64,000 nucleotides of DNA from contig CP011806.1 in assembly GCA_001664505.1 (NCBI GenBank), positions 1,641,528 through 1,705,527 on the forward strand, given 5' to 3'. This DNA comes from Acidobacteria bacterium Mor1. Its GTDB lineage: Bacteria; Acidobacteriota; Polarisedimenticolia; Polarisedimenticolales; Polarisedimenticolaceae. Each line of letters starts with the position of its first letter. Positions within the stretch are counted from its first letter, which is position 1. This document shows, in pieces, positions 36,256 through 46,114 of this stretch. The notes beneath the pieces are model-generated. The model had not been told where the DNA came from, did no database searches, and worked only from the letters and a program-made list of their open reading frames with translations. The position numbers were made by a program, and so were the translations under genes.

Positions 36256-36989
36256 AACATCTCAACGAAGAACAGCTGATCCTCGCCTACTACGGCGAAC
36301 TCGAAGAGGCCGAGCGCCGGGAATCGGAGGCTCACCTCGAGAGCTGCGAGACCTGCCGCGAGGCGCTGGCCGCCCTGGAGCGCGACCTGGGAAACCTCGA
36401 GCTCGAGATTCCCGAGCCGGCGCCGGACTACGGCGCGGAGATGCGCCGCCGGGTCGAAGCCGGCGCCCGCTTCCGCGGAGGCAGTCGCGTCTGGACCGCA
36501 CCGAGGCTGACCGCCGTCGCCGCCGTCGCCGCGGCGCTGATCGCCGCCTTCCTGCTGGGCCGCGTCACCGGACCTGACTCGTCCTCCCCTGCGGTGAACA
36601 CCCCCGAGGCCCGGGAGCAGCTGATGCTGACCGCCGTCGGGGACCACCTGGAACGCTCCCAGCGCCTACTGCTGGAGTGGAGCAACACCGATGACCCCGG
36701 TGAGCTGGGCGGGTCCCGGGACCTCGCCGCCGAACTCGCCGACTTCAACCGGCTCTACCGCCGCACCGCCGACGCGGCCGGACGGGAGCCGATCGCCGAC
36801 CTGCTCAACGAACTCGAGCGCATCCTCGTCGAGGTGGCCAACTCGCCGAGTGAGCTCGACCCCGAAAGCTGGAACCGTCTGCGGCAACGGATCAACGACC
36901 GCGGTCTGATCTTCAAGATCCGCGTGCTGGAAGAGACCGTTCGCCGCGAACCGGGCGCCCCCGAGAGCGCCCCTGGAGACGAAGTATGA
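36252..36989 (+). CDS. Membrane-bound anti-sigma factor with zinc-finger (ZAS-like) motif
   Basis: The protein has 245 residues. The N-terminal domain carries the anti-sigma zinc motif His28-x3-Cys32-x2-Cys35 (AHLESCETC). A single transmembrane helix (about 80-102, AAVAAALIAAFLLG) follows a basic segment. The outer domain of about 140 residues is helical, with many Leu/Arg/Glu and a RLYRRTADAAGREPIADLLNELERI stretch split over two helices. The cytoplasmic part should hold the cognate sigma factor inactive. The gene overlaps the sigma gene by four bases and the next gene by four bases. Confidence 0.88.
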   Translation: MKHLNEEQLILAYYGELEEAERRESEAHLESCETCREALAALERDLGNLELEIPEPAPDYGAEMRRRVEAGARFRGGSRVWTAPRLTAVAAVAAALIAAFLLGRVTGPDSSSPAVNTPEAREQLMLTAVGDHLERSQRLLLEWSNTDDPGELGGSRDLAAELADFNRLYRRTADAAGREPIADLLNELERILVEVANSPSELDPESWNRLRQRINDRGLIFKIRVLEETVRREPGAPESAPGDEV

Positions 36990-38356
36990 ACCCGTGGAAG
37001 CTGATTCTCTCTCGCCGGCCCCTGGCCGCTCTGCTTGTCGTGCTCCTGTTGGCGGGCACCCTGGCGGTGGCCAAGGACGGCCGCGACGCCTACGACCAGG
37101 GCACCAGGTACATGGACCGCGGCCGCTACCCCGAGGCGGTCGACGCATTCGACAGCGCCATCGAGGACGGCTACCGAAAGGACGCCTCGATGTACTGGAA
37201 GGCGTACTGCCTCCATCGTTCCGGCCGCACCGATCAGGCCCTCGACGTCCTCAACTCCCTACGCAGCAAGTATCCCGACAGCCGCTGGGCCGACGAGGCC
37301 AAAGAGCAGGAGACCGAGATCCGCAGCGAGTACAACAGCGGAACGGCCGGCACGGTGCGTGACGACTCGCTCAAGCTGATCGCGCTGCAGTCGCTCCTGA
37401 TGTCGAATCCGGACCAGGGAATCCCGATCCTCAAGAAGTACCTGAGAAGCGACCGGACCAGCGAAGAGAAGGTCAAGGCGCTCTACCTCCTGGTCCAGAG
37501 CGGATCCGAGGAAGCGGTCGCGATGTCCGCGGAGATCGCGATGGAAAGTGACGACCCGGAGCTGCAGCTCGCCGCGATTCGCAACCTGGGGATCTTCGGC
37601 GGCCCGCAAAGCGAACGGCAGCTGGAGGATCTCTACTGGAACAGCCCCAATCGCGACGTGAAGCGCCGGATTCTTCAGTCCTTCCAGATCAGTGGAGCGG
37701 TCGAGCCGGTGGTCCGGGTACTCGAGGAGGAACCTTCCGCCGAACTCCGCGCCGACGCGATCCAGACCCTGGGCGTGATGGGCGCCACCGGCATCCTCGA
37801 TCGCTACTACGTCAAGGAGACCTCCGAAGAAAACAAGGCGCGCATCCTCAACGCATACATGATCGCCGGCGCCCACAAGCAGGTGCTGCAGGCGGCCCAA
37901 TCGGAACCCTCCGCCGACCTGCGGGCCCGGGCAGTCAACCTGCTGGGGGTGCTGGGTGCGACCGACGACCTCTGGACCCTCTTCCAGCAGGAAAAGGACA
38001 TCGAGATCAAGAAGCGCATCCTCAACGCCTTCGGTATCGCCGGCGACGGCAAACATCTTCGCGAGATCGCCAGCCGGGACAGTGAGCCGCTGGAGCTTCG
38101 CCGGGCCGCCGTGCAGGGCCTGGGCATCGCCGGCCAGTGCCCCGCCCTGGCAGACCTCTACGGCAAATCCAAGGAGTACGAACTGCGCCGGGGCATCCTC
38201 CAGGCAATCATGATCTGCGGGGACGCCAAGGCGTTGATCCGCATCGCCCGCGAGGAAGACGACCCGGAACTGAAAGCCGCCGCCGTGCGAAACCTGGGCA
38301 ACATCGGATCCCCCGAAGCCACCCAATTCCTGATGGAGCTGCTCAATGAGAAGTAA
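36986..38356 (+). CDS. Exported TPR-HEAT repeat protein in the sigma/anti-sigma operon
   Basis: The protein has 456 residues. The N-terminus has a signal or anchor helix ending GTLAVAKDG. Residues of about 32-110 form TPR units ('GTRYMDRGRYPEAVDAFDSA' and 'HRSGRTDQALDVLNSLRSKYP'). From residue 120 on the protein is built of HEAT units, for example 'ELQLAAIRNLGIFGG', 'ELRADAIQTLGVMGAT' and 'ELKAAAVRNLGNIGSP'. It overlaps the anti-sigma gene at the start and the next HEAT gene at the end. Placement suggests that it senses or scaffolds something in the periplasm relevant to the sigma pathway; this is inference. Confidence 0.85.
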   Translation: MNPWKLILSRRPLAALLVVLLLAGTLAVAKDGRDAYDQGTRYMDRGRYPEAVDAFDSAIEDGYRKDASMYWKAYCLHRSGRTDQALDVLNSLRSKYPDSRWADEAKEQETEIRSEYNSGTAGTVRDDSLKLIALQSLLMSNPDQGIPILKKYLRSDRTSEEKVKALYLLVQSGSEEAVAMSAEIAMESDDPELQLAAIRNLGIFGGPQSERQLEDLYWNSPNRDVKRRILQSFQISGAVEPVVRVLEEEPSAELRADAIQTLGVMGATGILDRYYVKETSEENKARILNAYMIAGAHKQVLQAAQSEPSADLRARAVNLLGVLGATDDLWTLFQQEKDIEIKKRILNAFGIAGDGKHLREIASRDSEPLELRRAAVQGLGIAGQCPALADLYGKSKEYELRRGILQAIMICGDAKALIRIAREEDDPELKAAAVRNLGNIGSPEATQFLMELLNEK

Positions 38357-39410
38357 TGCGCGTTTCTTCTGGATCCTGCTGCTGCTGGCCGCTCCTCTCC
38401 TGGGCGCGAACAACGCCGCGGCTCTCGAGACCATCGACGCCGCGATGCAAAAGCACAGCGCAAGCGGCGCCCTGGGTGACCAGATCGAGCGTTTCGGCGG
38501 CAGCGCCCGCAACGGCGTCTGGATCGGCTGGCTGGTCGACAGCGTCGAAAGCGGCGGCGCGATCTGCAGCTACCGCAACTCCAAGGGCTGTCACTGCGTG
38601 CTGGAAGGCAACCAGGAAGGCTGGACCATGCACGGTGGCGACCACGACGGCGTCGTGCCGGTACCCTCGGGCCAGGTGGCGGTGCTCGTCCGCGCCAACT
38701 CCCGGGGAATCGACCGGATCCGCACCTACGATGCCGCCTGCAAGCTCGACTTCGGCGGAGCCACACTGCACGTCATCGAAGGGGTCGACGACCGAGACAG
38801 CCTCGGCTGGCTCGAGACCCAGGTCGACACTCCGGCGCGCAAACTGCGGGAGGATGTCGTCGCCGCCATCGCCCAGCACGAGGACAGCAAGGCCGACCGC
38901 CTGTTGCGCGGCTTCCTGGAGGGTGACGGCCCGCGCAAGCTGCGGGAGAACGCCGCCTTCTGGTTGGGAGCCGCCCGGGGAACGGCGGGCTACGACGCCC
39001 TGGTCGCGACCTACCGCAAGGAGAGCGACTCCAAGTTCCGCAAGGAATTGATCTTCCCGATTCACCTCTGCAAGGACGAACGTGCCACCGACTTCCTGGT
39101 GGACAAGGCCCGCAAGGATGACGACCGGGAAGTCCGCAAACAGGCGCTGTTCTGGCTGGCCCAGCGGGCCGGTGAACGGGCCGAACAATCGTTGATCGAT
39201 GCCATCGACGACGACCCGATGATGGAAGTGCGGCAACAGGCGGTCTTCGCCCTGAGCCAACTCCCCGAAGACCGGGCGGTGCCGGCGCTGATGGAGATCG
39301 CCCGGGGCGAGGACCGCCATCCGGAGATCCGCAAGAAGGCGCTGTTCTGGCTCGGCCAGATCGACGACCCGCGGGTCCTGGACTTCTTCGAGGAGATCCT
39401 CGAGGAATAG
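38346..39410 (+). CDS. Exported HEAT-repeat protein, last gene of the sigma/anti-sigma operon
   Basis: The protein has 354 residues with a signal peptide ending NNAAALE. Residues of about 30-160 form a beta-rich domain with Cys-bracketed SYRNSKGCHCVLEG and 'GQVAVLVRANSRGIDRIR'. After that come HEAT repeats with a strongly conserved helix: ENAAFWLGAARG, 'KQALFWLAQRAGERAEQ', 'QQAVFALSQLPEDRAVP' and 'KKALFWLGQIDDPRVLD'. Its start overlaps the previous gene by 11 bases, which shows cotranslation. A strong terminator follows. Confidence 0.85.
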   Translation: MRSNARFFWILLLLAAPLLGANNAAALETIDAAMQKHSASGALGDQIERFGGSARNGVWIGWLVDSVESGGAICSYRNSKGCHCVLEGNQEGWTMHGGDHDGVVPVPSGQVAVLVRANSRGIDRIRTYDAACKLDFGGATLHVIEGVDDRDSLGWLETQVDTPARKLREDVVAAIAQHEDSKADRLLRGFLEGDGPRKLRENAAFWLGAARGTAGYDALVATYRKESDSKFRKELIFPIHLCKDERATDFLVDKARKDDDREVRKQALFWLAQRAGERAEQSLIDAIDDDPMMEVRQQAVFALSQLPEDRAVPALMEIARGEDRHPEIRKKALFWLGQIDDPRVLDFFEEILEE

Positions 39411-39542: not shown

Positions 39543-40358
39543 GTGAGCGTTGAAGCCCATTCGCTACGGTCCGCGCTGTCCCCCGCGCAGGTAGACCAGT
39601 TCTACCGGGTGGGATTCGTGACCCTGCGCCGGGTCTTCGGCCCGAACGAGCTCGGGCCGATCCGCCGGGCCTTCGACCGGCTTCGCGGCGACGCCGAACG
39701 GCTCGCCCTCGACACCGAGCACTCCCCTGCCGAAGCCGGCGCCCCCGCGATGGTGATGCACCGGGGCTCCCAGTTCGTGATGGACGCCGCCCCCCATCGG
39801 ATCCGCCGGGTGGTCTGGTGCGGCGCCTCCGAACCGGTGCTGGCGCTGATCGGCGCGGATCCGCGGTTGCTGGGCCCGGTCTCCCAATTGCTCGGCTCCC
39901 GCAAGATGGACCACCTGATCAACCAGGCTCATTTCAAGAGCCCCGGCGACGGGGTCGCCTTCCCCTGGCACCAGGACAGCACCCACCGGCGCTACGGCAC
40001 TCCCCAGTGGCGAGATCTCAACGGCCGCGGCAGCTACGTCCAGACGGTGATCGCCGTCGACGAGGTGACCCGGGACAACGGCCCGCTGAGCTTCATCCCG
40101 GGGAGTTGCACCCGCGGGCACCTGGACCTGCCGGGAGACGGCAGCCTGCCTCCGGAGTACGACCCGGCCACCGCGGTCCGGCCGGAACTGCAGCCCGGAG
40201 ACGTGGTCCTGTTCGGCCCGTACACCATCCACGGCAGCGAGCCCAACGAGTCCACCCGGCCCCGCAGGGCGCTGATCAACGGCTACGCCTACCCCGGCGC
40301 AAACTCCCGGACCTATCCCGGCGAGGGTTCCGGCCGCTCCCTGTCCGTCGGCATCTGA
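39543..40358 (+). CDS. Phytanoyl-CoA dioxygenase-family Fe(II)/2-oxoglutarate oxygenase
   Basis: The protein has 271 residues from a GTG start. The iron triad is visible as His143-x-Asp145 (WHQDS) and His230 (YTIHGSEPN). The 2-oxoglutarate arginine lies in the following RPRRALINGYA segment. The N-terminal 'LSPAQVDQFYRVGFVTLRRVF' and 'DNGPLSFIPGSCTRGH' blocks are typical of PhyH. It should hydroxylate a small substrate, using O2 and 2-oxoglutarate and releasing succinate and CO2; the substrate is unknown. It precedes the octaheme cytochrome by only 24 bp, but a functional link is not evident. Confidence 0.88.
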   Translation: MSVEAHSLRSALSPAQVDQFYRVGFVTLRRVFGPNELGPIRRAFDRLRGDAERLALDTEHSPAEAGAPAMVMHRGSQFVMDAAPHRIRRVVWCGASEPVLALIGADPRLLGPVSQLLGSRKMDHLINQAHFKSPGDGVAFPWHQDSTHRRYGTPQWRDLNGRGSYVQTVIAVDEVTRDNGPLSFIPGSCTRGHLDLPGDGSLPPEYDPATAVRPELQPGDVVLFGPYTIHGSEPNESTRPRRALINGYAYPGANSRTYPGEGSGRSLSVGI

Positions 40359-40382: not shown

Positions 40383-42200
40383 ATGTCTACCGGCCGGGCC
40401 CAACGCGTTTTCCTGCTGCTGGCGCTGTTTCTGACGGCGCCGCTGACCGTCGGGCTGTGCCTGTCCTTCGCCCCCGACCCCGAGGCCATCGCCGCGGCGA
40501 AGCCGCTGATCCACCGGGAGGAGGGCAACGTCGGCTCGGAGACCTGCCGCCCCTGCCATCTGGAGCAGCACGCCAGCTGGAAGAAGACCTACCACCGCAC
40601 CATGACCCAGCGGGCCCATCCGGAAACCGTGGTCGGCGCCTTCGACGGGCAGACCGTGCGCTACATGGGCAAGGAAGCGCGCCCCTTCCAGCGGGACGGC
40701 CGCTTCTACATGACCATCCCCGCCGAGGAGGGCTCCCGGGAGGCGGAGGTCGTGCTCGCCGTCGGCTCCCGGCGCTACCAGCAGTACTTCGAACAGGTAG
40801 CGGTGGCCGACGGTCACATCTACCGGCGGCTGCCGGTCCTCTGGCACATCGGCTGGGAGCGGTGGCTGCACATGAACACCGTGTTCCTCGGCCCCGACGA
40901 CGCCGACTGGGACGCCCACGCCACCCGCTGGAACGACAACTGCATCTTCTGCCACAACACCGCGCCGCGGCCGGGCATCGAGCAGGGCTACGCCTTCGAC
41001 TCCCACGTGGCGGAACTCGGGATCGCCTGTGAGTCCTGCCACGGCCCCGGCGAGGCGCACGTAGCGGCTCAACGCAATCCGGGCACCCGCTACGGCTACC
41101 ACCTGAGCGGCGAGGTGGCCGACGACATCGTCAACCCCGAACGCCAGGATCAGGCCGAGGCTGTCTCGGCCTGCGGCCAGTGCCATGGGCAGCGGGTGCC
41201 GATCGAGGACGAACTGATCGTCGACTGGATGCACACCGGCCCGACCTACCGCAGCGGGGATGATCTGCTCGATCACGTCAGGCCGGTGACCCGCGACCTG
41301 CCGCCGCCGAAGACTGCGCGGCAGGATCTGTTCAGCCAGCGTTTCTGGTCCGACGGCACACCGCGCCTCTCCGCCTACGAGTTCCAGGGAGTCATCGAAT
41401 CACCCTGCTACAAACAGGGGCCGATGACCTGCGGCTGGTGCCACTCGATGCACGGCGGCGATCCCAAGGGCATGATCTACGAGTCGATGCGAGGCAACCG
41501 GGCCTGCGTCCAGTGCCACCAGGACATCGGCGCCGACGTGGCGGGACACACCATGCACGCCGCAGACTCCAGCGGCTCCCAGTGCCTCGACTGCCACATG
41601 CCCAAGATCGTCTACGGCATCCTGGAAACCCACCGCAGCCATCTGATCGAGGTTCCCGATCCCGCCCGCGACGCCGAACAGGGACGGCCCAACGCCTGCA
41701 CCATGTGCCACCTCAATCGCAGCCCGCTGTGGGCCGCCGAGGAGATGCAGCGCCTGTGGGGAGATGCCTATCGCCGCCCCGGATACCGCCAGGACAAGGC
41801 ACCGCTGGAAATGTCCGACGCTGTGGCCTCGCTTCTGACCGGAGACCCGGTGCAGCGGGCGGTCTACGCCTCGGCGGCTGGACGCGCCGGACGCAAGCTG
41901 GAGGACCCGGGTCAGATCCACGCCACCCTGGCGGTAACCCTCGGCGACGGCTGGCCCAGCGTGCGTAGCTTCGCCCAGCGCAGCCTGGCGACCTACGACG
42001 ACCTGCCTACCGAGTTGCGGGAGACCGTGGCCGAGTGGGACCACACCCTGGCGGAAGAGCGGGGCGCCATGGCCCGTGCGATCCTCGACTACCTGAACCG
42101 CCAGGGAGTTTCCGAAGTGCCGACCTACCTGACCGACGACCAACGCCTGCTCGCGCTCCTTGAGCTGCAAGAGGGGCGCATCATCTCCATCGGTGAGTGA
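40383..42200 (+). CDS. Octaheme c-type cytochrome with C-terminal helical repeats
   Basis: The protein has 605 residues. An N-terminal anchor helix (about 9-30) is followed by eight CxxCH haem sites at residues 55, 187, 216, 264, 350, 375, 401 and 439. The blocks 'VGSRRYQQYFEQVA', 'WERWLHMNTVF', 'NCIFCHNTAP' and 'IACESCHGPGEAH' are those of the cytochrome c554-like 'multiheme c-type cytochrome' family. All sites are CxxCH, so it is not a NrfA-type enzyme with a CxxCK site. The last 130 residues look like HEAT-type helical repeats. It should carry electrons at the outer face of the membrane; acceptor and donor are unknown. The next gene starts two bases after its stop. Confidence 0.88.
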   Translation: MSTGRAQRVFLLLALFLTAPLTVGLCLSFAPDPEAIAAAKPLIHREEGNVGSETCRPCHLEQHASWKKTYHRTMTQRAHPETVVGAFDGQTVRYMGKEARPFQRDGRFYMTIPAEEGSREAEVVLAVGSRRYQQYFEQVAVADGHIYRRLPVLWHIGWERWLHMNTVFLGPDDADWDAHATRWNDNCIFCHNTAPRPGIEQGYAFDSHVAELGIACESCHGPGEAHVAAQRNPGTRYGYHLSGEVADDIVNPERQDQAEAVSACGQCHGQRVPIEDELIVDWMHTGPTYRSGDDLLDHVRPVTRDLPPPKTARQDLFSQRFWSDGTPRLSAYEFQGVIESPCYKQGPMTCGWCHSMHGGDPKGMIYESMRGNRACVQCHQDIGADVAGHTMHAADSSGSQCLDCHMPKIVYGILETHRSHLIEVPDPARDAEQGRPNACTMCHLNRSPLWAAEEMQRLWGDAYRRPGYRQDKAPLEMSDAVASLLTGDPVQRAVYASAAGRAGRKLEDPGQIHATLAVTLGDGWPSVRSFAQRSLATYDDLPTELRETVAEWDHTLAEERGAMARAILDYLNRQGVSEVPTYLTDDQRLLALLELQEGRIISIGE

Positions 42201-42201
42201 C

Positions 42202-42639
42202 ATGAGCGAGAAGGAAACCCGCGACCCGGCAACCGGCAAGGCCCTGGCCTGGGGTTGGGGGCTGCTGGCGGTGTCGCTGCCGCTGGGGTTGACCCTCGAG
42301 GCACTCCACGCGTTGAAGGTCTCGAGCTACCTGTCGAGCCCGATGCGCCGGGAGCTCTGGACCCTGGCCCATGCCCACGGCAACCTGCTTGGGATCCTCT
42401 GCCTCGCCTTCGCCGCCGTGGGGCTGCGCACCCTGCCCGACGCCGCGTCCCGCGGCTCGGTTTCCCTCTGGCTGCGGCTGGGCGCGGTGATCATGCCCCT
42501 CGGCTTCTTCGCCGGAGGCATCCTCAACTACGAGGGGGATCCCTCGCTGGGGATCCTGCTGGTCCCGGCGGGTGCGATCTGCCTGCTCTACGCCCTGGGC
42601 CGGGCGGGACTTTCGGCCTGGAGGGTCGCCGGTTCTTGA
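42202..42639 (+). CDS. Four-helix membrane protein next to the octaheme cytochrome
   Basis: The protein has 145 residues. Four hydrophobic helices lie at about 17-37, 53-71, 85-107 and 112-132. The second helix starts with a His-bearing WTLAHAHGNLLG segment, which could bind haem or metal, though no pair is proven. The start is an ATG two bases after the cytochrome stop, and the end overlaps the following gene (TTGA). Tight spacing suggests it is the membrane partner of the cytochrome. I recognise no named family. Confidence 0.75.
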   Translation: MSEKETRDPATGKALAWGWGLLAVSLPLGLTLEALHALKVSSYLSSPMRRELWTLAHAHGNLLGILCLAFAAVGLRTLPDAASRGSVSLWLRLGAVIMPLGFFAGGILNYEGDPSLGILLVPAGAICLLYALGRAGLSAWRVAGS

Positions 42640-44285
42640 GCACTCCGGTTCAGGCCGGCCTCTACGGCTTGCTGGTCCTCGTGCTGATCGGCTTCGTCTG
42701 GGCGGCGCCCTACGTGCCGACCCAGGACGGACCACAGCATGTCTACAACCTGGTGCTGCTCGAGGGGCTCGGCCGGGAGGCACCCGAGGTCACCGAGCAC
42801 TACACCCTGGGAACGCTGGCGAACCCCAACCTCGGCTTCCAGCTCGTGGGCTTTCCGCTGCTCGATTTGTTCTCGCCGCTGACGGTGGAGCGCATCTTCC
42901 TGACCCTCTACCTCGGGCTGTTCGCGGCGGGGGTGGTGGTGCTGCTTGCGGCGCTCGGCCGGCCGCCGTTCCCCACGGCGCTCCTGGCTCTGCCGGCGGC
43001 GTTGAATTTCACCCTGCTGATGGGTTTCTACAGCTACGTGCTGGCGGTACCCCTGCTGCTCTTCGCCCTGGCCACCGTGTGGCACCTGCGTGGCAGTGGT
43101 CCGGTGTTGCGATTCGCGGCGTGGAATGCCTGGGGCCTCGTGCTGTTCTGGACCCACCTGGTGCCCTTCGCCGCCTTCGGGCTCGCCCTTCTGATCTGGC
43201 CGTTTGCCTGGCGCGGCCTGCTCGCGCCCAACGAGGAACAGCTCGCCGGCGGCGAGATGCCGGAACCCGAGGAACTGCTGAAGCTGGCGCCATCCCTGGG
43301 CCGCCGGCTGCGTGAGACCGTACTGCTCTGCTTGCCCATGGCGGGACTGCTCGGTTGGTTCCTGCTGCGGGGCGGCGGTGGCGACATCGCGTTCTGGCGC
43401 CTGCCCCATCAGTTGATGGGCGACCTGATGTTCTTCTCGACGGTGGCGATCTCGTCGCTGCAGACGGTACCCGGCGTGGTGTTGCTGGCGCTGGTGCTGT
43501 GGGGCCTGTGGAACCGCTCCCGCGGCAGCGAGCCCCGGCTCGACGACGTGAACGCCCGCAACGCGCGCCTGCTCGGCGACACGCCGACCCGCTGGCTGGC
43601 GATGCTGGCGCTGGGGTTGGTTTTCGTCTACTTCGCATCGCCCCGGCGCTTCGGCGGTGGCGGCATCTTCAACGAGCGTTTCCCCTGGCTGATCCTGCTG
43701 GTGTTGTTGCCGCTGTTGCGGCTGCCCTCGCCGGGGTTGTTGCGCCAGGCGTTCGGCGTGGCGGCGTCGATCATGGCCGCGGTAAGCGTAGGCCTCAGCC
43801 TGTGGTTGTTGTGGCCCATGGCCGGAAGTGTCGAGGCTTTCGTCGCAGGACGCGATCTGGTGCCGGCGGGAGCCACGGTGGTGACCAGCCGCTTCGATCC
43901 GGCGATGGTCTGCCGCACGCCCGGCTCGTCACCCTGGCCACGCTTCGACCCCCTGCTTAACGCAGGCGCCCACTACGGCCTGGACGGTGCCGTCAATCTG
44001 GGGAACTACTCGGCTTTGCTGCCCCACTTCCCGATTCGCTTCCGCGCGGACGCCTCGACGATTCCCCATCCGCTCGACGCGTACTGCCGGGCGGGCTCGA
44101 TGGATTGGGGCACCTGGCCGGTGGTCGACTACATGCTCGCCTGGGGCGTCGACGCCGACGATGCGGCGGTGCTGCGCCGCAGCTTCGATCCGCTGGAGGT
44201 GCGCATCGGCAGCGAGGCGTCGAGTCCACCGCTTTCGGTCTGGAAGCGGCGAACCGCAGCCGGCCGGTCCGAGGTGCGGCGATGA
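42636..44285 (+). CDS. Multi-pass membrane protein, probable GT-C glycosyltransferase
   Basis: The protein has 549 residues and about ten transmembrane helices. It starts at a TTG that overlaps the preceding stop (TTGA), with GGAGGG ten bases upstream. After the first helix comes VPTQDGPQHVYNLVLLEGL, a DGPQH motif in the position of the GT-C acidic motif. A large C-terminal outer domain (about 390-549) contains 'VVTSRFDPAMVC' and 'WGTWPVVDYMLAWG'. It should transfer sugars from a lipid carrier outside the membrane. Donor and acceptor cannot be told. It overlaps the next GT-C gene by four bases. Confidence 0.7.
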   Translation: MSTPVQAGLYGLLVLVLIGFVWAAPYVPTQDGPQHVYNLVLLEGLGREAPEVTEHYTLGTLANPNLGFQLVGFPLLDLFSPLTVERIFLTLYLGLFAAGVVVLLAALGRPPFPTALLALPAALNFTLLMGFYSYVLAVPLLLFALATVWHLRGSGPVLRFAAWNAWGLVLFWTHLVPFAAFGLALLIWPFAWRGLLAPNEEQLAGGEMPEPEELLKLAPSLGRRLRETVLLCLPMAGLLGWFLLRGGGGDIAFWRLPHQLMGDLMFFSTVAISSLQTVPGVVLLALVLWGLWNRSRGSEPRLDDVNARNARLLGDTPTRWLAMLALGLVFVYFASPRRFGGGGIFNERFPWLILLVLLPLLRLPSPGLLRQAFGVAASIMAAVSVGLSLWLLWPMAGSVEAFVAGRDLVPAGATVVTSRFDPAMVCRTPGSSPWPRFDPLLNAGAHYGLDGAVNLGNYSALLPHFPIRFRADASTIPHPLDAYCRAGSMDWGTWPVVDYMLAWGVDADDAAVLRRSFDPLEVRIGSEASSPPLSVWKRRTAAGRSEVRR

Positions 44286-46114
44286 CCCGCTACGCTCCCC
44301 GGATCGTGCTGCTGTTCATCCTGGCGCTGGCGGCCTTCGTGCGCTTCCAGGGCATCGGTTTCGGCCTGCCCTACCTGGAAGCGCGGCCCGACGAGACGAC
44401 CATCGTCGAACATGCCATGGGCTTCTGGAGCGGTGATTTCAACCCGCACTTCTTCGCCTACCCCACCTTCTTCATGTACATGGTCTCGGGGTTGGGGGCG
44501 CTCAAGGCAGGGATCGCGGGAAGCTACCCCGCTTCCTACTTCTCCGAGAACACCCCCGAAGTCTATCGGCTCGCTCGGTCGCTCTCGGCGTTGCTCGGGG
44601 TGTGGACCGTCGGCCTGACCTATCTGGTGGGCCGCCGGCTGTTCGACCGGCGGGTCGGGCTGGTCGCGGCGCTGTTCCTGGCGCTCTGCTTCCTGCACGC
44701 ACGAGATTCCCACTTCGGCGTGACCGATGTACCGATGACCGCCTTCATCATGGGCGGAATGGTGTTCGTCTCGCGGATGGTCGGCCGACTGGATGGCAGG
44801 CAAGGCGGCGATGGGCAAGGACGTGCTTCTTTCCTGAGCTACGCCGGCGCTGCGATTCTCGGCGGGCTGGCAACCTCGATCAAATACAGCGCCGCGCCTT
44901 TCTGTTTCGCCATCCTCGCCGGGCACCTCCTCGGCAGTGCCGGACCGAGTGTCGACGGCGGCTCAAAGCAGGAGGGCGGTCTCTTAAAGGCGCTGCTCTC
45001 ACCGAAGCTGGGGGGCGCCGCGGCGCTCATGGTGGCGGCGTTCTTTGCCGGGTCGCCCTATCTGCTGCTGGACTTCAAGAACTTCGTCGCGGAGTTCAGC
45101 GGCGAGATCCGCCACCTGGGGGTCGGACACCGGGTTGTTTCGATGCGCGGCTGGTTCTACCACCCGATCTTCTCGCTGCCCTTCGGTATGGGGCTGCCCC
45201 TGTACCTCGGTTCGCTGCTGGGTGTCGGCTACGTCGTCTGGCGCTACCGGCTGCGCGCGCTGGGACTGCTGGCCTTCCCGCTGGCGTTCTACCTGATCTC
45301 GGGGAAGGGCTACACGGTCTTCGTGCGGTACATGATTCCGCTGCTGCCCTTCCTGTGCATCACCGCGGCGGTGCTGGTGTGCGTCGTGGCCGCCTGGCTG
45401 ATCTCCAAGTTCTCGCCGCGGGGCTCGACCATCGAGGCGGTGAACCGGATGCGATTCGCGGGGATTGCGGCTGCGCTGGCGATACCGCTGATCCTCCCGT
45501 CGGAGATGGCCATCAGCGGTTTCAACCGGCTGAGCGGCATGGATGACAGCCGCTTCCTGGCGGAGCAGGCGCTCGACGAGCACTCGACCAAGAACCATGA
45601 AGCTCTCTTCGAGAACGATGACGACGACCAGCACTGGAGCGTGGCCCAGACAGGCTCGGACTGGAGTCTGCTCGGAGTGAACTCCGCCTACGGATGCGAT
45701 GGCGTCGTGCAGCGGTTCGTCGCTCCGCTCGGTTTCTCCAACCTGGCCTGGGACTCGGCTGCGAAGCGCTTCCGACTCAACGACCCGCTCATCGAGGAGG
45801 ACCCGCGGTATTCCGCTGAGGCACTGGACGCCATCGGACTCGGCATCGTGCCCCATCACTTCGTGGTGCACCGTTCCCCGCTGATTCCCTACGACCAGGT
45901 ACCGGAAGAGATTCCGGCAATGCTGGAGCGCTGCTACGAGCGATTCGCGGTGATCGAGGGCAACGGCCCCGATGTTGAGGGGTTGCCCTACGATCAGCAG
46001 GATGCGTTCTACCTGCCGCTGCGCGGCTTCGACCGTGTCGTACGCCCGGGACCGGATATCGAGCTATGGGCGCGAAAACCCGGAGTGACGGCGGAAGACT
46101 GCCTGCCTCGATAG
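44282..46114 (+). CDS. GT-C (PMT/ArnT-like) glycosyltransferase
   Basis: The protein has 610 residues, with about eleven helices and a C-terminal outer domain. The first outer loop has the catalytic acidic pair Asp37-Glu38 in ARPDETT, and the second loop has the ARDSHFGVTDVPMT motif. Both are classic for family 39/83-type GT-C enzymes. It probably moves a sugar from a polyprenyl phosphate to protein or lipid in the periplasm. Its ATG overlaps the stop of the previous gene (ATGA). The octaheme cytochrome, four-helix protein and two GT-C genes are therefore one translational chain. Confidence 0.82.
   Translation: MTRYAPRIVLLFILALAAFVRFQGIGFGLPYLEARPDETTIVEHAMGFWSGDFNPHFFAYPTFFMYMVSGLGALKAGIAGSYPASYFSENTPEVYRLARSLSALLGVWTVGLTYLVGRRLFDRRVGLVAALFLALCFLHARDSHFGVTDVPMTAFIMGGMVFVSRMVGRLDGRQGGDGQGRASFLSYAGAAILGGLATSIKYSAAPFCFAILAGHLLGSAGPSVDGGSKQEGGLLKALLSPKLGGAAALMVAAFFAGSPYLLLDFKNFVAEFSGEIRHLGVGHRVVSMRGWFYHPIFSLPFGMGLPLYLGSLLGVGYVVWRYRLRALGLLAFPLAFYLISGKGYTVFVRYMIPLLPFLCITAAVLVCVVAAWLISKFSPRGSTIEAVNRMRFAGIAAALAIPLILPSEMAISGFNRLSGMDDSRFLAEQALDEHSTKNHEALFENDDDDQHWSVAQTGSDWSLLGVNSAYGCDGVVQRFVAPLGFSNLAWDSAAKRFRLNDPLIEEDPRYSAEALDAIGLGIVPHHFVVHRSPLIPYDQVPEEIPAMLERCYERFAVIEGNGPDVEGLPYDQQDAFYLPLRGFDRVVRPGPDIELWARKPGVTAEDCLPR

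Follow-up and report, generated by a model that had tools for sequence, protein, structure and literature searches.

We analyzed a 64,000-nucleotide stretch of the genome of Acidobacteria bacterium Mor1 (GenBank assembly GCA_001664505.1, contig CP011806.1, positions 1,641,528 to 1,705,527 of the forward strand), referred to here as the window, and found that the gene for an octaheme c-type cytochrome and the gene for a small four-helix membrane protein directly downstream of it (here 4TM) make up a conserved two-gene module that is probably a functional unit. We somewhat favor the view that this module encodes a minimal membrane-bound oxidoreductase, in which 4TM would serve as the heme b-carrying, quinone-linked membrane subunit of an octaheme enzyme resembling OcwA and MccA. 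An earlier sequence-only reading had tied the pair to two following genes for GT-C-type glycosyltransferases and had offered two options: a glycosylated extracellular electron transfer apparatus, or a chance adjacency in which the cytochrome and the four-helix protein form a quinol-linked complex. The pairing in the second option is borne out by the conservation described below, while its quinol linkage is something that we infer.

The cytochrome and 4TM genes form a conserved pair

The cytochrome gene (window positions 40383 to 42200, forward strand) encodes a protein of 605 residues with an N-terminal hydrophobic helix (residues 3 to 29). A direct count gives exactly eight CXXCH motifs, in agreement with its earlier description as octaheme. 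The 4TM gene follows on the same strand (42202 to 42639) and encodes 145 residues, which the AlphaFold2 monomer model, built without heme, folds into the four helices that had been predicted (residues 9 to 37, 47 to 77, 81 to 108, and 117 to 144; mean predicted local distance difference test score, 94.9).

Including the window, 22 such pairs were found across the window's own phylum, Planctomycetota, and Myxococcota, and every cytochrome in them has exactly eight CXXCH motifs. 4TM occurs in 5 of 60 genomes drawn as relatives, the window genome among them. To put numbers on the association, we used a single-sequence search of 396 genomes of the phylum, in which a 4TM match of 69 bits or more was scored as strong and the cytochrome was scored as present at an E value of 1e-55 or below. 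4TM gave a match in 20 genomes (16 strong and 4 weak) and the cytochrome was present in 29. All 16 genomes with a strong 4TM match fall among these 29, against about 1.2 that chance alone would place there (hypergeometric P of 5e-21, a value overstated because the genomes are related). In 13 of these 16 genomes, the 4TM gene directly follows the cytochrome gene on the same strand; in the other three (L081, L084, and L086) it is divergent and lies within about 6 kb of an operon in which a c-type cytochrome gene and a gene for an unnamed protein precede the octaheme gene. The same arrangement as in the window was seen in a set of 11 named cytochrome loci from public genomes (33% identity or more; L020 to L030): 4TM lies immediately downstream in six of these, all from Planctomycetota or Myxococcota (L020, L021, L026, L027, L028, and L030). 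The genomes of two more, L022 and L025, have a 4TM gene that is not seen beside the cytochrome gene in the locus sequence; the L022 locus stops inside the cytochrome gene, and the 4TM gene of L025 is on another contig.

The two proteins are also inherited together. Over the 22 pairs, their distance matrices correlate with an r of 0.764, a value reached by 0 of 5,000 shuffles. In the cytochrome tree, the window sequence and that of the planctomycete locus L030 form a clade (support, 100/99) joined by L078 and L020 (97/97), and the 4TM tree groups the same four sequences with weaker support (90/94 and 83/90). Two genomes of the same class as the window, G014 and G016, are placed away from it in both trees. 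With this grouping shared across two phyla in both trees, the pair seems to travel between phyla as a unit. The trees leave aside cytochrome-only loci and five sequences from a sister group of 4TM; the latter were also kept out of the pair counts and of the core profile used with hhalign (see below).

Several other genes were noted near the pair. In the three loci with a divergent 4TM gene, the octaheme gene belongs to an apparent operon (L081:6256-8818, L084:6336-8714, and L086:9507-11893) and is preceded by genes for a one-CXXCH protein with a weak cbb3-III-like match and for a second protein without a Pfam match. At four loci from three phyla (L020:5189-7690, L021:11031-14333, L192:5493-7730, and L200:2085-5282), a gene near that of the octaheme cytochrome codes for a large membrane protein that has a spermidine synthase domain. 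Redoxin or thioredoxin-fold genes recur near the pair (L083:8179-8826, L084:3403-4290, L087:13555-14271, and L089:5423-5986), those of L083 and L084 having been checked with Pfam.

The cytochrome resembles OcwA without its heme 5

The cytochrome scores above the Pfam cut-offs for Cytochrome_C7, Cytochrome_C554, and Paired_CXXCH_1. Its motifs, at residues 55, 187, 216, 264, 350, 375, 401, and 439, follow an order that can be aligned to those of OcwA, MccA, NrfA, and c554, which places it in the NrfA/c554/octaheme superfamily. The closest relative of known structure is OcwA, the nonaheme cell surface reductase of Thermincola potens (PDB 6i5b). It ranks first in a profile search of the PDB (E value of 2.7e-23, with MccA at 4e-9), and VIA-align superimposes it on the cytochrome model with a Z of 13.7 and a root mean square deviation (rmsd) of 3.8 Å over 341 residues (44 to 462 versus OcwA residues 42 to 466). 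The next row was the undecaheme protein 6qvm (Z of 7.4), and MccA had a weak score (Z of 5.4).

The likeness to OcwA holds for the fold over residues 44 to 462, the order of the heme motifs, and the pattern of heme ligands. In a residue alignment, cytochrome hemes 1 to 4 and 5 to 8 correspond to OcwA hemes 1 to 4 and 6 to 9. OcwA heme 5 has no counterpart, and a leftover cysteine (C342) is found in 23 of 25 sequences; the partial cytochrome of L022 was excluded from all residue counts. Six distal histidines are conserved in the family (H71, H226, H357, H389 [24 of 25], H392, and H420), along with an invariant Met74 and a near-invariant Met406. According to the parts of the OcwA structure report available to us, OcwA hemes 1, 3, 4, 6, 7, and 8 are bis-His, heme 9 is His-Met, and hemes 2 and 5 are open (PMC6703420). 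The cytochrome's set of six histidines and one methionine matches the prediction from these ligands. If one methionine serves as a ligand, one of the eight hemes is left without a conserved distal ligand, and the cytochrome probably has a single open, catalytic heme, most simply heme 2. The same parts of that report describe a beta-sheet domain common to OcwA and MccA and absent from other NrfA family proteins, and suggest that losing either heme 2 or heme 5 gave rise to the octaheme enzymes (PMC6703420). The cytochrome has a beta-strand domain between heme 1 and heme 2 (residues ~80 to 165, with model strands at 92 to 163; window positions 40620 to 40877, forward strand), the same place as the domain described after heme 1 of OcwA (residues 75 to 156).

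Unlike OcwA, the cytochrome has eight rather than nine hemes, as do all 22 paired cytochromes, and it has an N-terminal hydrophobic helix and a dedicated four-helix partner gene. Where OcwA and NrfA have three long helices, its C-terminal part (residues ~463 to 605; window positions 41769 to 42197, forward strand) consists of short helices in the model. This part is HEAT-like by sequence, residues 461 to 594 giving profile matches to designed HEAT-repeat alphaRep chains and to a HEAT domain. MccA, the octaheme sulfite reductase with a heme-copper active site (PDB 4rkm/4rkn), has iron-sulfur and NrfD-like proteins as its known partners, neither of which adjoins the window cytochrome gene. As far as the available descriptions of it go, MccA shares with the cytochrome the number of eight hemes, the loss of the OcwA heme 5 position, and the beta domain.

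Two side observations concern the cytochrome itself. A terminal glutamate, mostly in the form Gly-Glu, is strictly conserved in all 24 complete cytochrome ends (window positions 42192 to 42197), even where no 4TM gene overlaps. The window genome, a single contig of 5.985 Mb, also encodes a second, distant cytochrome (L002:634-2688; G000:C1:3239701-3240720) with 31% identity, seven CXXCH motifs, a TPR end, and no 4TM.

4TM carries an invariant H-x-H motif on a predicted fold like that of heme-binding membrane proteins

Residues H57 and H59 of 4TM (codons H57-A58-H59, window positions 42370 to 42378, forward strand; at the predicted periplasmic end of helix 2) are invariant in all 27 aligned sequences. 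The 22 cytochrome-linked members share nine invariant residues in all (G29, L32, E33, H57, H59, G60, F102, D113, and P114) and have K or R at position 39. Five divergent members without a neighboring cytochrome keep G29, H57, H59, F102, and P114, but not E33 or D113. Loops 1 and 3 are poor in K and R, and loop 2 and the C terminus are rich in them. This charge distribution fits a topology in which both termini are inside and H57 and H59 lie near the periplasm, facing the cytochrome.

Scanning the 27 members against Pfam and NCBIfam gave nothing convincing, one member matching Pfam COX1 at an E value of 0.019, and a profile search of the PDB gave no credible match (best E value, 0.9). With the 4TM model, Foldseek ranks styrene oxide isomerase (8pnu) first (E value of 0.035; TM scores of 0.70 and 0.66). 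In VIA-align, the isomerase has a Z of 12.2 and, of the top rows, the smallest rmsd (2.9 Å over 136 residues); helices IX to XII of heme-copper oxidases have a Z of 12.3 to 12.7, and MAPEG proteins have a Z near 10. By the program's own warning, a Z near 12 for a helical bundle may reflect a common arrangement. On these models, 4TM looks like a heme b membrane subunit, and we do not claim it as either a heme-copper oxidase or an isomerase.

The available portions of the styrene oxide isomerase papers place heme b on H58, which is H57 in the enzyme from Rhodococcus, at a homotrimer interface, with both termini cytosolic; D95, N99, and Y103 of helix 3 position the substrate, and the N99A and Y103A variants are inactive (PMC11374702, PMC12502698). 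4TM resembles this enzyme in its four-helix fold, judged on a predicted model and with a Z within the chance range of helical bundles, and, going by those descriptions, in having a histidine near the start of helix 2 and both termini inside. By the aligned ranges, the position of H57 is compatible with that of the ligand H58. One could ask whether 4TM is itself an enzyme of this type that uses its heme as a Lewis acid on an epoxide, either of a lipid or of a quinone, while the cytochrome sets the redox state of that heme. Despite the first rank in Foldseek, we regard this as very unlikely: helix 3 of the 27 4TM sequences has no invariant D, N, or Y to match D95, N99, and Y103. The two proteins also differ in having H-x-H rather than one histidine and in genomic setting, and they have no detectable sequence similarity.

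The other likeness is to subunit I of heme-copper oxidases, which have a threefold build. Like 4TM, helices IX to XII of that subunit have an H-x-H motif in the second helix of the repeat, and the stretch AHAHGNLLG of 4TM corresponds to AHVHGGALG in the cbb3 oxidases of relatives. Taken furthest, this would make 4TM a living single-repeat relative of subunit I, a homotrimer that rebuilds the pseudo-threefold core with heme b between H-x-H helices at each interface and that is wired directly to an OcwA/MccA-type octaheme enzyme. We consider this improbable. 4TM is one four-helix unit of 145 residues rather than twelve helices, and no copper ligands were identified. Aligned by hhalign with heme-copper oxidases, it reaches at best a P of 0.0053 and a probability of 6.8%, with H-x-H in register, which is not significant (unrelated controls, P of 0.068 and 0.63). 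Against full-length A-type oxidases, the best-scoring alignment falls on helices I to IV instead of IX to XII, which counts against a simple reading of 4TM as the third repeat.

A sister group of 4TM keeps the H-x-H motif (as GHAHAG) in a setting without a cytochrome, between a MacB/FtsX-type permease and an ABC ATPase that are followed by a membrane-fusion-like protein (L091:7336-10765, L092:7509-10961, and L093:7384-10896). Sequences related to this group are also present in Deinococcus and Nonomuraea records. Searches of plasmids gave no match for the planctomycete 4TM and two uninformative ones for the exporter-linked form.

A possible minimal membrane-bound oxidoreductase

In the reading that we favor, the cytochrome would be a periplasm-facing, membrane-anchored enzyme built like OcwA without heme 5. 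In OcwA numbering, hemes 1, 3, 4, and 6 to 8 would be bis-His, one heme would probably be His-Met, and heme 2 would likely be the open catalytic heme. 4TM would bind heme b through H57-x-H59, probably where subunits meet within a small oligomer, in the manner of styrene oxide isomerase. A quinol, or another membrane donor, would reduce this heme near the periplasmic face, and the electrons would pass into the eight-heme chain to be used at heme 2 on a small oxidized substrate. The direction of electron flow might also be the reverse.

There is a precedent for pairing a periplasmic reductase with a minimal, helical membrane protein: the menaquinol:organohalide oxidoreductase PceA2B2, which the available parts of its report describe as a minimal two-subunit, quinol-linked enzyme with a small helical anchor and quinone at the interface (PMC10624902). 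The two systems are alike in layout, a gene for a periplasmic redox enzyme beside one for a small helical membrane protein. They differ in that the proteins are unrelated, the PceA2B2 anchor has three helices, and no multiheme cytochrome is involved. The same precedent lends itself to another explanation, in which the pair is an electron transfer complex but 4TM holds no heme and is just a membrane anchor or quinone site subunit, as the three-helix RdhB/PceB is for PceA. The protonatable residues E33, D113, and K/R39, each present in 22 of 22 members and predicted to lie on the periplasmic side, would suit quinol oxidation under this explanation. An anchor, however, would need neither the two invariant histidines nor a likeness to heme-binding folds, and we judge a heme-free 4TM possible but unlikely.

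Several results weigh against a heme b subunit dedicated to this enzyme. 4TM is not obligatory for the cytochrome. It was not found in the genomes of three of the named cytochrome loci (L023, L024, and L029), and within the phylum a strong 4TM match is missing from 12 of the 29 genomes with the cytochrome (not counting G343, which has a sister-group 4TM). Ten of those 12 yielded no 4TM even to a profile search, the other two giving weak or partial matches. Among the loci without 4TM that were read, no obvious replacement gene adjoins the cytochrome gene. Of the four genomes of the phylum with a weak 4TM match, G027, G196, and G210 do not belong to the 29 with the cytochrome, and G343 encodes its cytochrome on a different contig. 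Because the exporter-linked sister group shares H-x-H, this motif alone does not prove a role in electron transfer. Foldseek returned no match at an E value of 0.001 or below for the 4TM model or for the cytochrome model (best E value for the latter, 1.6), so that the match to OcwA rests on the VIA-align comparison and the profile search. The VIA-align warning and the hhalign result given above belong on the same side.

The absence of 4TM from many cytochrome genomes and the placement of its sister group beside an exporter could also mean that 4TM is an assembly or maturation factor for the cytochrome rather than a subunit. Its position directly downstream of the cytochrome gene and its co-inheritance with it across phyla speak against such a role, as do the cytochromes without 4TM that were read, all of which retain the eight motifs, indicating that 4TM is not generally needed for maturation. 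We think it rather doubtful that 4TM is such a factor.

The glycosyltransferase-like genes are a local addition

Two further genes follow 4TM on the forward strand of the window. GTC2 (44282 to 46114) encodes a protein above the Pfam cut-offs for both PMT_2 and PMT and is thus a GT-C glycosyltransferase, as had been claimed for both genes, and of the PMT type. GTC1 (42636 to 44285; TTG start) encodes a large multihelix membrane protein with no Pfam or NCBIfam match, and two of its homologs likewise lack a Pfam match; it is GT-C-like by motif only, from its hydrophobic stretches and an N-terminal D-x-x-x-H motif common to relatives. All four open reading frames are present in the window sequence at the places and on the strand given here. 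The spacings had been put at 2, -4, and -4 bases. Both overlaps are indeed 4 bases (TTGA between 4TM and GTC1; ATGA between GTC1 and GTC2), but the cytochrome stop codon ends at 42200 and the 4TM ATG begins at 42202, leaving a gap of 1 base. Such tight spacing is weak evidence for a functional link because 8 of 28 codirectional neighbors in the window, by crude open reading frame picking, overlap or sit within 10 bases of each other. A consensus scan for promoters and terminators found nothing above chance.

The sequence-only reading had suggested a comparison of gene neighborhoods, and this shows the cytochrome and four-helix genes without the GT-C genes at 21 other loci, the neighborhood result that the reading itself had named as refuting. 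Nine window proteins were used as tblastn queries on 36 other cytochrome loci, of which 21 have the pair; among the nine, just the cytochrome and 4TM gave matches. No homolog of GTC1, GTC2, or the PhyH, HEAT, GH113, or GlcD proteins was found at any of the 36, the sequence of L078 reaching just 252 bases past 4TM. Homologs of GTC2 (17 of 100 genomes including its own, at an E value of 1e-10 or below) are placed elsewhere, as in G022, where one lies within a run of similar large membrane proteins. GTC1 found matches in its own genome and, weakly, in 8 of 99 others (9 of 100 in total), mostly over its first 180 residues. In G014, these genes are spread over three contigs: 12 carries the pair, 13 the GTC2 homolog, and 16 a GTC1-like gene. 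GTC1 and GTC2 thus lie outside the module as a local addition whose adjacency to the pair is coincidental. The first option of the sequence-only reading, in which the cytochrome, 4TM, and two GT-C enzymes make up a glycosylated extracellular electron transfer apparatus, draws on overlapping genes in the window genome only. We reject it on gene neighborhoods and would give it hardly any credence.

Upstream, a PhyH-type dioxygenase gene (window positions 39543 to 40358) ends 24 bases before the cytochrome start, an adjacency to the pair that is not conserved. Before it, after a sigma factor gene, come genes for two HEAT-repeat proteins, one of them with TPR (36986 to 39410); the cytochrome C terminus is also HEAT-like.

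Implications

Discussions of octaheme and OcwA-like enzymes usually involve known quinol-side partners such as NrfH, NrfD-like, or CymA-like proteins. 4TM appears to be an undescribed kind of membrane partner for this class of enzyme, and no report of the cytochrome-4TM pair was found in the literature searched, which consisted of open-license papers. The overlapping GT-C-like genes, which proved unrelated, illustrate that gene overlap alone is a poor guide to function.

With 145 residues, two histidines, and fold matches to heme b and heme-copper proteins, 4TM is a short and testable target. If the single-repeat reading were true, the module would be a minimal respiratory complex of a new kind and could serve as a model of what preceded the triplication of the oxidase gene. 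More generally, a portable two-gene unit with a small unnamed membrane protein, found in three phyla, would give octaheme and OcwA-like enzymes a new kind of link to the membrane.

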